Origin: Candidatus Endomicrobiellum siamense
GTDB taxonomy: Bacteria; Elusimicrobiota; Endomicrobiia; Endomicrobiales; Endomicrobiaceae
Length of the DNA: 54,490 nt
Reading direction: 5' to 3'
NCBI GenBank assembly: GCA_031268145.1
Contig: JAIRXS010000044.1
Coordinates: 1-54,490, forward strand
Both the position numbers and the translations under genes were made by a program. The number at the start of each line of letters is the position of its first letter. Position 1 is the first letter of the stretch. This document shows positions 44,818 through 48,988 of the stretch, piece after piece. The notes below the pieces were generated by a model. That model saw only the letters and a list, made by a program, of their open reading frames with translations. It made no database searches and was not told where the DNA came from.

Positions 44818-44872
44818 GTTTATCACTTTTCCATCACAATTTATGTGATGGAAAAGTGATAAACTTTATTTT
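44818..44872 (+). terminator. 21-bp perfect hairpin terminator
   Basis: The arms at 44818-44838 and 44844-44864 pair without a mismatch around a 5-nt ATTTA loop (the arm begins GTTTATCAC). TTTATTTT follows on the plus strand, fitting a rho-independent terminator for the 35-aa gene. The rny stop codon (44866-44868) lies immediately beside it, so it may also end the convergent rny transcript. Confidence 0.75.
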
Positions 44873-46410
44873 GCGACATCTTGAGCACGAATCTCTCTAA
44901 TAACTGTTATTTTAATTTGACCTGGATACTCTAATTCTTGTTCAACTTTCTTTGCGATATCGTGTGCTAAAACTTGAGCCTGTGCATCATTTACGTTTTC
45001 TGGTTCTACCAGTATTCTAACTTCTCTTCCTGCTTGTATAGCATAAGCCATGGACACACCGTGAAATTCCTTTGCAACTTTTTCAAGCTTTTCAAGACGT
45101 TTTAAGTAATGTTCTACGGACTCTCTTCTTGCACCTGGTCTTGCTGCAGAAATTGCATCAGCAGCAGCTATAACAAAAGCTTCAGGACTTGCGGGTGCTT
45201 CTATACCTTCGTGATGAGACAAAATTGCATTTACCATCTTTGACGATTCACCATACTTTTTAGCTATGTCAGCTGAAATTTGATGATGAGTACCTTCAAC
45301 TTCATGATCTACAGCTTTACCTACATCGTGCATAAGCGCAGCTTTTTTGCAAAACATAACATCAAGACCTAGCTCCCCAGCTATAGCACCTGCAAGCCAT
45401 GTAACTTCCAACGTGTGTTGGAGCTGATTTTGACCGTAAGATGTCCTGTATTTTAACTTGCCAAGAAGTTTAATAATTTCTATGTTAAGGCTAGGAACGC
45501 CTGCATCAATTGCAGATTGTTCTCCGACTTCTTTTAAGTGCTGATCCATTTCTTTTCTAACTTTTTGTACAACTTCCTCTATTCTTGCAGGGTGAATTCT
45601 TCCATCTGCAATTAGTCTTTCTAAAGCTATTTTTGCTATTTGTCTCCTAACACCATCAAAAGCAGAAACCGTTATAGCTTCTGGTGTATCATCAACTATT
45701 AAATCTACTCCTGTAATTTGTTCGAATGCTCTAATGTTTCTTCCCTCTCTACCAATAATTCTACCTTTAATCTCATCGTTTGAAATTTGTACTGTAGAAG
45801 TAGTAATATCTGCAGCATGATCTGCAGCTACGCGTTGTATTGCTACAGAAAGAATCTCTTTAGATTTCTTATCTGCATTTTCGCGAGTTTCTTGTTCAAG
45901 CCTTTGAGCTAAAATAGCAACATCTTGTTTTGCCTCTTGCTCCATTTTACTCATGAGCATTTTTTTTGCTTCTTCCTTTGTAAGACTAGAAATTTTTTCT
46001 AAAACTACTTTTTCTTCTTCTTTTATTTTTTCTATTTCTGCAAACTTTGAAGATAAAGATTGTTCCTTTGAAAAAATATCTTTTTCTCTCTTAACCAAAT
46101 CTTTCTCTTTACTATCAAATGCATCAATTTTTCTATATAAATTTTCTTCACGCTGATTAAGTCTATTCTCCATACTTTGAACAGATTGTTTTCTTTCTTT
46201 TATTTCTTGTTCAAAACCCTTTCTTTCCTTATCAACAATAACTTTGGCCTCTAAAAGAGCTTCTTTAGTCTTTGTTTCAGCTATCATTTTAGCTTCTTTT
46301 ATAATTCTTTCTGAAATTTGCTCTGCAGATTTTGCATTAACTTTGGCATACACTAAACGCAACAAATAACCCAAAACCAAAAAGATTAACGCAATTATAA
46401 ATATTCCCAT
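44866..46410 (-). CDS. rny: Ribonuclease Y
   Basis: RNase Y is a membrane-anchored endoribonuclease that starts mRNA decay. There is one N-terminal membrane helix ([20 protein letters not shown]) and a long coiled coil (about residues 30-200). A KH domain follows ([20 protein letters not shown]), then an HD domain with HD in [19 protein letters not shown]. The C-terminal part has [13 protein letters not shown]. Length 514 aa is standard. AAGGAG precedes the ATG. Confidence 0.96.
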
Positions 46411-46419
46411 ATTGACTCC

Positions 46420-47013
46420 TTAAACATCTAAAACTTTTATAAATCTTTTTTCTGTAACTATACTTCCAACAGGGATATCGTGCTTTGCAACTGGAACGTC
46501 TTTAACAACTTGAAAATCATATGCAAGTCCTACAATTTTTGCACAGTCAATACCTTTTAGGAATCTGTCATAAAAACCCTTTCCGTAGCCAATCCTATAG
46601 CCTAATTCACTAAAAACAATGCCTGGAACAAAAAATAAATCTATAGATTCTTTACTAATCACATTGTTTTTGTTTACTTCAGGTTGCCTTATGCCACAAA
46701 ATAACCTGTTAGCTTCTTTAAGCTTGAAAATTCTTACAGCTCGCATTTGTACACTTTTCATATTTGTTATGGCAGCCACTGAAACATCTTTTTTATCTTC
46801 AAAAGCAAAGTTTATTAATAAATCTGTTGACATTTCTCTGCCACAAGATAAGTAAAACATTATTGTTTTTGCTTTCTTATATATGGAAAGGGCTTTTGCT
46901 TTACAAGCTGTTTCCATGCTATAGTCTTTTAGAACTTCTAAAGTTAAGTTATTTCTTAAAGATAAAAACTTAGTTCTTATCTGTTTTTTTCTTAATTCTA
47001 AACAAACGTTCAT
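46420..47013 (-). CDS. 5-formyltetrahydrofolate cyclo-ligase
   Basis: This enzyme converts 5-formyl-THF to 5,10-methenyl-THF (ygfA/fau family). It shows KKQIRTKFLSLR at the start, TIMFYLSCGREMSTD, and the signature GYRIGYGKGFYDRFL. PVAKHDIPVGSIVTE lies at the end. The start is ambiguous: ATG 47013 gives 197 aa and a 44-bp overlap with rarA, while ATG 47049 overlaps by 80 bp. Family length favours the shorter form. Together with rarA, the 6S candidate and zapA it echoes the zapA-ssrS-ygfA order. Confidence 0.88.
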   Translation of the reverse strand: MNVCLELRKKQIRTKFLSLRNNLTLEVLKDYSMETACKAKALSIYKKAKTIMFYLSCGREMSTDLLINFAFEDKKDVSVAAITNMKSVQMRAVRIFKLKEANRLFCGIRQPEVNKNNVISKESIDLFFVPGIVFSELGYRIGYGKGFYDRFLKGIDCAKIVGLAYDFQVVKDVPVAKHDIPVGSIVTEKRFIKVLDV

Positions 47014-48289
47014 GAAGTTTGCTCTCATATCCTTCTTTTGACGGAACATAAAGCTCTATAGGATCTGGAAAATAACTTTGTTCCACATAATGTCCATCAA
47101 AATCGTGAGGATATTTATATCCGTTTCCATGTCCTAATTTTTTACTATCAAAATTTGCATCTTTTAGATGATTTGGTACTTTCCTAATTTTACCATTTTT
47201 AACTTCATTTATAGCTTTTCCTATAGCAAGGTAAGTGGAGTTAGATTTAGGTGCAGTCGCCACATAAATTGCTGCTTGAGATAAAATAATTCTTGCTTCT
47301 GGCATGCCTACAAATTTAACAGCTTCTAATGCAGAAACAGCAAACATTAATGCTCTTGGATCTGCCATGCCTACATCTTCTGAGGCACAAATAATTATTC
47401 TCCTTGCTATAAAACGAGGATCTTCACCTGCTAAAAGCATTTTTGCTAACCAATAAACACTAGCATCTGGATCACTCCCTCGCATAGACTTTATAAATGC
47501 AGAAATATGATCATAGTGAGCATCAGAAGTTTTATCGTAGACTACAGCTCTCTTTTGTAGAGATTCTTGAGCTACAAAAATATCAAATATTCTAACTCCT
47601 TTAGCATTAGCTTTTGTAGAAAGCACCCCTATTTCTAAAGCATTTAATAACTTCCTTGCATCGCCACTAGAATTCAAAACTAAATGTTTCTTTGCTTCAT
47701 CTGATATTTCAACGTTGTAACTACCAAGACCACTTTCTTTATCTGTTAAAGCAGATTCCATTATTTTTAAAAGAGCTTCATCGCTTAAAGCAAAAAATTC
47801 AAAAACTGTACTTCTTGAAATAATAGCTGCATTTATATAAAAAAAAGGATTTTCAGTTGTTATACCTATTAATGTTATAATGCCTCTTTCTACATCTGGC
47901 AGCAAAGCATCCTGTTGAGAACGATTAAAGTGGTGTATTTCATCTAACATTAATATGGTTTTTTTACCAGATGTTTCTAAACGTGCTTTTGCAGAATCTA
48001 TTATCTTTCTAATATCTGATATTCCTATTGTTACCGCGTTTGCCTCATGAAAATAAGCTTTAGTTCTTGAAGCTATAATTCTAGCTAAAGCACTTTTTCC
48101 AGTACCAGGAGGGCCAAAGAAAATTACAGATCTCAAACTGTCTGATTCTATTAAGCGTCTAAGCAGTTTCCCCTTTCCAACAATGTTGTCTTGACCCATA
48201 AAAGCTTCTAGGGTGTTTGGGGCCATTTTTAGAGCTAAAGGCCTATATTTTTTTTGAGCCTCATTTTTTAAAAAGTCTGTTTGTTCCAT
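46970..48289 (-). CDS. rarA: Replication-associated recombination protein A (RarA/MgsA AAA+ ATPase)
   Basis: This clamp-loader-like ATPase acts at stalled forks. The family start is RPLALKMAPNTLEAFMGQDN. Walker A is FGPPGTGKSALAR, Walker B is ILMLDEIHHF, and sensor 1 is LIGITTENP. The C-terminal RarA region has SDAHYDHISAFIKSMRGSDP, YWLAKMLLAGEDPRFIARR and NHLKDANFDSKKLGHGNGYKYPHD (given here as family landmarks). Length 439 aa is normal. No ribosome-binding site is visible before the ATG, which sits in the T-tract that ends the upstream RNA. Confidence 0.94.
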   Translation of the reverse strand: MEQTDFLKNEAQKKYRPLALKMAPNTLEAFMGQDNIVGKGKLLRRLIESDSLRSVIFFGPPGTGKSALARIIASRTKAYFHEANAVTIGISDIRKIIDSAKARLETSGKKTILMLDEIHHFNRSQQDALLPDVERGIITLIGITTENPFFYINAAIISRSTVFEFFALSDEALLKIMESALTDKESGLGSYNVEISDEAKKHLVLNSSGDARKLLNALEIGVLSTKANAKGVRIFDIFVAQESLQKRAVVYDKTSDAHYDHISAFIKSMRGSDPDASVYWLAKMLLAGEDPRFIARRIIICASEDVGMADPRALMFAVSALEAVKFVGMPEARIILSQAAIYVATAPKSNSTYLAIGKAINEVKNGKIRKVPNHLKDANFDSKKLGHGNGYKYPHDFDGHYVEQSYFPDPIELYVPSKEGYESKLHERLFRIKKKTDKN

Positions 48290-48292
48290 AAT

Positions 48293-48450
48293 AAAAAATC
48301 CGCAGATGCCGTTAGTTTAACCTGTTTAAAGCCTTCTTTTTTTCAAGTGAGATACAGTGGCATAAGCCCTCGAGCATACACTCGACTGCTGTTCTCTTGA
48401 GTAGACTTGTAGGAATAAACAAGGTCAAAACATCACCAACACTGCAGATC
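48293..48450 (-). ncRNA. ssrS: 6S RNA candidate
   Basis: The 175-bp gap between zapA and rarA folds, on the minus strand, into one long interrupted hairpin. The closing stem is AUCUGCAG (48449-48442) with CUGCGGAU (48305-48298). GUUGGU then pairs with ACUAAC. A 12-bp stem with one bulged U joins 48428-48416 to 48317-48328. An asymmetric central bubble follows, then CAAGU/ACUUG. GAGAACAG pairs with CUGUAUCUC (one bulged A), and a UCGAG/CUCGA tip closes the fold. A T6 run ends it. Size (about 155 nt), the central bubble and the position directly after zapA are those of 6S RNA, which binds sigma-70 RNA polymerase. The fold was drawn by hand. Confidence 0.75.
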
Positions 48451-48464
48451 AAATATGAAATATT

Positions 48465-48755
48465 TCAATTATTATAATCGTATTCATCTAGCTGTTTGAT
48501 AATATCTTTGATTTTTTTCTTATAATTATTTGAAATACTTTCTTGCGAATCCTTTAATTTAAGTAGATCTGCTGCAATTTTCACAGCAGTCAACGCTGCA
48601 ATCTTCTGAGTGTCGGGAACTTTAATATTTTCGTTTTTCACTTGCATCCATTGCTCATTTACAAAATTAACTATCCTATTAAAACTTAATTCGTCTATAT
48701 CATCTATATTAAGCTCTATATCTCTACCCATAATTCTTTCACGGGTTGTTGCCAT
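48465..48755 (-). CDS. zapA: Cell-division protein ZapA
   Basis: ZapA is a small FtsZ-ring-associated protein. The 96-aa sequence has the ZapA pattern: IMGRDIELNIDD near the start, FVNEQWMQVKN, VPDTQKIAALTAVKIAADLL (the conserved NxQRIAVLAALNIADEL-like helix) and a C-terminal coiled coil. It starts 2 bp after the coiled-coil gene and is directly followed by the 6S RNA candidate. Confidence 0.85.
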   Translation of the reverse strand: MATTRERIMGRDIELNIDDIDELSFNRIVNFVNEQWMQVKNENIKVPDTQKIAALTAVKIAADLLKLKDSQESISNNYKKKIKDIIKQLDEYDYNN

Positions 48756-48757
48756 TG

Positions 48758-48988
48758 CTATAAAACCTTTACAGTGTCAATTTTTTTTATAATACACTCT
48801 ATCTTAGAAACCACTTCTTGTGAATTTCTCTTTAATACAATGTATTGATCCAATTTTTTTTTATTTTGTTCATTTTCTTTCTTTAAATAATCAAGCTCTA
48901 ACTTTAATTTACGGTTTTCACTATCAAGTTTTTGTAACTTTTCTACAACTTTTTTAACTTTTGAAGACAAAATTTCAAGATCTCCCAT
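48758..48988 (-). CDS. Small coiled-coil protein next to zapA (ZapB-like)
   Basis: The 76-aa protein is nearly all heptad coiled coil (KKVVEKLQKLDSENRKLKLE, then LDYLKKENEQNKKKL). Size and position ahead of zapA suggest a ZapB-type partner of the division ring, but such short coiled coils cannot be assigned by sequence alone. ATG 48988 is taken because the longer frame to 49024 adds a non-coiled hydrophobic start. No clear ribosome-binding site is seen for either. Confidence 0.6.
   Translation of the reverse strand: MGDLEILSSKVKKVVEKLQKLDSENRKLKLELDYLKKENEQNKKKLDQYIVLKRNSQEVVSKIECIIKKIDTVKVL

Follow-up and report, generated by a model that had tools for sequence, protein, structure and literature searches.

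6S RNA is a well-known small RNA that holds RNA polymerase by posing as an open promoter. In E. coli K-12 its gene lies in the order zapA-ssrS-fau, with fau in the position of the 5-formyltetrahydrofolate cyclo-ligase (5-FCL) gene, which agrees with the proteobacterial arrangement that an earlier note on the DNA studied here had described. In LAB and B. subtilis, 6S RNA adjoins rarA (PMC8414754). Known pRNAs carry GG at positions 4/5 or 5/6 plus an adjacent A (PMC8414754), pRNA synthesis on E. coli 6S RNA starts at U44, and a collapse pairing is described for the 6S RNAs of B. subtilis and A. aeolicus (PMC8876501). Ms1 RNA, of Actinobacteria, is ~300 nt long, has extra terminal hairpins and is bound to core polymerase (PMC9130861). 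In the literature that we searched, no paper links 6S RNA to Elusimicrobia or to Endomicrobium; the gene may have been detected before in work outside that search.

In this study, we analysed a window (the whole stretch of DNA, 54,490 nt) from a genome of Endomicrobium type (Elusimicrobiota), whose nearest RarA proteins, 85-87% identical, come from termite-gut MAGs of 'Candidatus Endomicrobiellum'. The minus strand from 48453 to 48293 is almost certainly the single 6S (SsrS) RNA gene of this genome, and the locus is an additional member of a known RNA family (Table 1).

Results

A full-length match to the 6S RNA model

In an all-Rfam search of a 0.9-kb region, the locus matched RF00013 over positions 1-187 of 187 (41.2 bits, E 9e-7), and this was the sole match to that model in the whole genome at E<=10. 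Other Rfam matches in the region, to snoRNA and miRNA models, were weak and at chance level (E >= 0.1), and were set aside. The curated gathering score of RF00013 is 46.4 bits; because the window copy falls below it, a default Rfam scan makes no call here and routine annotation overlooks the gene. The earlier note, working from the letters of the DNA, had proposed a 6S RNA at 48293-48450. The identity is upheld by the full-length match, which is under the gathering score in the window and above it in relatives; the neighbourhood was right too, but the strand, which is minus, had not been given, and the interval ended three bases short of 48453. The exact ends (48453 and 48293) are placed by the model. 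On R1, a covariance model that we built from 35 family sequences, the window copy scores 169.9 bits, the window sequence itself being in the building set.

Table 1. Coordinates of the 6S RNA gene, its parts and its neighbours in the window
Feature	Position	Strand	Basis and remarks
6S (SsrS) RNA gene, ~161 nt	48293..48453	-	RF00013 match; 5' end ~48453, 3' end in T-tract at 48293
Closing stem P1, 5' strand	48437..48449	-	13 pairs, 7 with double-sided changes, 97.8% of cells paired, 35 sequences
Closing stem P1, 3' strand	48298..48311	-	Covariation count; 12-13 of 13 pairs persist in decayed relatives
5' strand of P2, the downstream helix; templates the predicted pRNA	48412..48425	-	Helices 2 and 3: 10 pairs, 5 double-sided, 96-100% paired
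P2, 3' strand	48320..48333	-	Covariation count
Predicted pRNA start, template C	48409	-	Same RF00013 column as E. coli ssrS U44; predicted pRNA 5'-GUAGGAAUAAACAAGG
Central bubble, 5' side	48397..48411	-	RF00013 alignment and consensus fold
Central bubble, 3' side, A-rich	48334..48348	-	RF00013 alignment and consensus fold
Apical arm, short, forked	48349..48396	-	GAGAACAG/CUGUAUCUC stem bearing two small hairpins, 48370-48385 and 48359-48368
T-tract closing the RNA	48293..48298	-	Sequence; 3 bases ahead of rarA start codon
zapA, upstream neighbour	48465..48755	-	PF05164 (ZapA), 45 bits; stop codon 11 nt before RNA
rarA/mgsA, downstream neighbour, start 48289	46970..48289	-	PF12002 (MgsA_C/RarA), 227 bits
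5-formyltetrahydrofolate cyclo-ligase (5-FCL)	46420..47049	-	TIGR02727, 142.5 bits; Pfam 5-FTHF_cyc-lig, 131 bits
rny (RNase Y), next in conserved cluster	44866..46410	-	TIGR03319, 671 bits

Pairing is conserved by compensatory change

The gap between zapA and rarA (48290-48464) contains one long hairpin, interrupted so as to leave six helices and a central bubble of unequal sides, and ending in a T-tract, much as the earlier note had drawn it by hand. The minus strand folds at -48.4 kcal/mol against a mean of -36.0 for shuffled sequences (z -3.41), with none of 200 shuffles equalling it; folding was one of the checks that the note suggested, and the minus strand alone was better than chance. 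An RNA from the plus strand was dismissed (z -1.45, no notable Rfam match). By itself the z-score is moderate evidence; the strong evidence is the conserved, covarying pairing in 35 relatives, the other property that the note had proposed to look for. When a 39-pair structure was counted on 35 sequences aligned by MAFFT, blind to structure, 91.8% of pair cells were standard, a percentage biased towards the structure because the consensus and the window's own fold each supplied part of it. Sliding the partners by 1-3 columns as a control brought pairing down to 30-49%. That bias does not explain the double changes, which occur on both sides of 22 of the 39 pairs and amount to 107 cells, compared with 34 +/- 5 after shuffling. 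A rod with a closing stem, a large asymmetric central bubble and an apical stem is thus kept by compensatory change. The closing stem and P2 are paired in 96-100% of cells and apical helices 4-6 in 81-86%, the latter with double-sided changes in 4, 4 and 2 pairs. The two-hairpin apical fork belongs to the Endomicrobium group; two sequences (L018 and L030) show a single hairpin there.

A predicted pRNA template

The junction of P2 with the 5' side of the bubble follows the pRNA template rule, with a predicted pRNA, 5'-GUAGGAAUAAAC, whose start aligns to that of E. coli at U44. The template CC, which would give GG at pRNA positions 4/5, is kept in 33/35 and 34/35 sequences, and an A stands immediately upstream of the pRNA start in 31/35. 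When the template is kept single-stranded in silico, to imitate a bound pRNA, folding shifts in favour of a collapse pairing (AAGUCU/AGGCUU) that joins the bubble's 5' side to the 3' strand of P2. This helix is pairable in 91% of cells, a value equalled by shuffles and dropping to 82% with a +1 slide, and the family alignment gave no covariation support for it.

Occurrence and decay among relatives

6S RNA fills the gap between zapA and rarA in ~40 Endomicrobiaceae loci. Searching 100 related genomes with RF00013 gave a match in 48, above the cut-off in 30; the best score among them, 69 bits, came from another family of the same order, where the RNA again lies beside rarA. R1 finds 6S RNA in 67 of the 100, including distant families of the phylum that are absent from its building set. 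Within the family, 39 genomes carry intact copies (>100 bits on R1), 13 of which exceed the Rfam cut-off. Neither model matched in four Elusimicrobiota families (f8, f13, f16 and f17) with genomes 88-99% complete; absence from f8, f13 and other families of the phylum may be real or may reflect a limit of sensitivity.

Twelve relatives in the genus have an eroded or erased 6S RNA at the conserved site. Seven genomes retain eroded copies scoring 69 to 22 bits (L036, L033, L024, L019, L177, L045 and L043), L177 keeping a remnant of 64 nt with an 11-bp closing stem followed by T7, and five others (L172-L176) have no recognisable 6S RNA between zapA and rarA. This is not a matter of missing sequence, since zapA is intact. 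Mapped on a tree of four proteins, decay requires four changes, at least two of them on well-supported branches. Among symbionts with published single-cell transcriptomes (PMC8809381), those of Pyrsonympha and Dinenympha have an intact 6S RNA and that of Trichonympha agilis a decayed one. We lean towards the reading that 6S RNA has been lost repeatedly and stepwise in this genus of termite-gut symbionts, the bubble and apical arm going first, the closing stem and T-run being left as a bare terminator, and erasure following.

Such losses raise the question of whether the window copy was itself recently inactivated, as twelve genomes of the same genus carry eroded or erased copies. We consider this very unlikely, since the window copy retains all 39 consensus pairs, scores as given above on R1 (with the caveat of the building set) and belongs to a six-member clade in which no copy has decayed.

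The decayed genomes are smaller than the intact ones, a comparison confounded by kinship. A second sigma-70-type factor is present in 10/21 intact and 0/12 decayed genomes (Fisher p 0.005), yet with 2 to 4 independent tree contrasts and the same confounding by kinship, an association with intact 6S RNA is not established. In most relatives that have this factor it is an open frame of 317-351 aa. The window's own genome shows it on contig C43 (L184:1375-2329), seemingly split by a frameshift into two parts, one of 182 aa and one of 124 aa, that are read in different frames.

Gene neighbourhood and the role of rarA

The order on the minus strand is zapB-like ORF – zapA – 6S RNA – rarA – 5-FCL – rny, and the Pfam matches in Table 1 bear out the arrangement from zapA to the cyclo-ligase that the earlier note had given. 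The small coiled-coil ORF upstream of zapA (48758-48985, minus strand) has a weak ZapB-like match of 22 bits, below the Pfam cut-off, and is conserved together with zapA in the family. A scan for sigma-70 promoters upstream of the 6S RNA found no match. Given this and the short distance to the zapA stop codon, the RNA probably arises from a zapA-6S-rarA-5-FCL-rny transcription unit, either by processing or by initiation within it.

In all phylum 6S loci examined except two (L109 and L110), rarA comes next after the RNA. These two (L180, L181) have 6S RNA directly upstream of 5-FCL and rny, like the proteobacterial order, and their 6-kb stretches contain no rarA. Outside the phylum, one locus each of Auribacterota and Nitrospirota (L059, L065) has 6S RNA upstream of rarA with rny downstream, and in Scopulibacillus (L055) it lies near rarA on the opposite strand.

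In most of the family the RNA immediately precedes rarA in the same orientation, a position that would also suit a cis-acting rarA leader (a riboswitch or attenuator) with no more than a likeness to 6S RNA. The spacing between the two nevertheless varies from 0 to 347 nt, and in L109 and L110 the RNA precedes 5-FCL instead. In addition, one relative (L062, genome G018) has a rarA (L062:1166-2479) with 12 in-frame stop codons and an RNA still scoring 124 bits, which speaks for selection on the RNA that does not depend on rarA. A leader therefore has barely any probability left. The same holds for an intrinsic terminator of the zapA unit in which P1 and the T-tract alone are selected and the remainder is filler: P1 and the T-run do persist in decayed relatives, one of which retains just the 64-nt hairpin with T7, but across the family conservation and covariation extend to P2, the bubble sequence and the apical stem, and these parts match RF00013 in the same order. 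P1 may also serve as a terminator, which leaves the rest of the RNA unexplained. A simple terminator scan of the flank found nothing, the scan being blind to stems with a long, structured loop between their strands.

Discussion

The 6S reading has points against it, namely a score under the cut-off, the lack of a sigma-70 promoter match, an altered apical arm and several lineages of the genus that are without 6S RNA. Our data firmly extend 6S RNA to the Endomicrobiaceae and give this lineage a 6S model of its own; of the intact genes found there, only about one in three exceeds the Rfam cut-off.

By analogy with known 6S RNAs, the rod with its open central bubble would imitate a melted promoter, and the RNA would bind the RNA polymerase holoenzyme with the primary sigma factor, keeping the enzyme inactive as growth slows; an RpoD-type sigma factor is encoded in the genome. 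Once nucleotides return, polymerase would initiate opposite C48409 and, with the bubble's 5' side and P2 as template, make a short pRNA that starts with GUAGGAAUAAAC, and this synthesis would open P2 and release the enzyme.

If the stepwise loss proposed above is true, the genus offers a natural series for asking at what point bacteria can do without 6S RNA, perhaps after alternative sigma factors vanish. The decay series could make testable why symbionts lose or keep it.

Among known systems, Ms1 RNA shares with the window RNA a rod with a central bubble and, on the presumed binding of the window RNA, an association with RNA polymerase; it differs in its length, its extra terminal hairpins and its binding to core polymerase, and it was not matched here. 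B. subtilis 6S-1 and the 6S RNAs of LAB share the rarA neighbour (PMC8414754) and the possible collapse pairing, which in the window RNA lacks covariation support, but rarA is upstream of 6S RNA in LAB and downstream of it in the window. Compared with E. coli 6S RNA, the window RNA is shorter (~161 vs 183 nt), no E. coli-type hairpin is predicted in its A-rich 3' bubble, and rarA sits between it and 5-FCL; relative to the Rfam consensus, its apical arm is shorter and forked. The zapA–6S–rarA–5-FCL order unites the proteobacterial neighbourhood (zapA–ssrS–5-FCL) with that of the firmicutes (6S beside rarA), and this combination suggests an old cluster. With the family RF00013 as a whole, the window RNA shares a full-length model match, the rod, the central bubble, the closing stem, a single copy, a P2 predicted to encode a pRNA with GG at 4/5, and a place beside zapA and 5-FCL.
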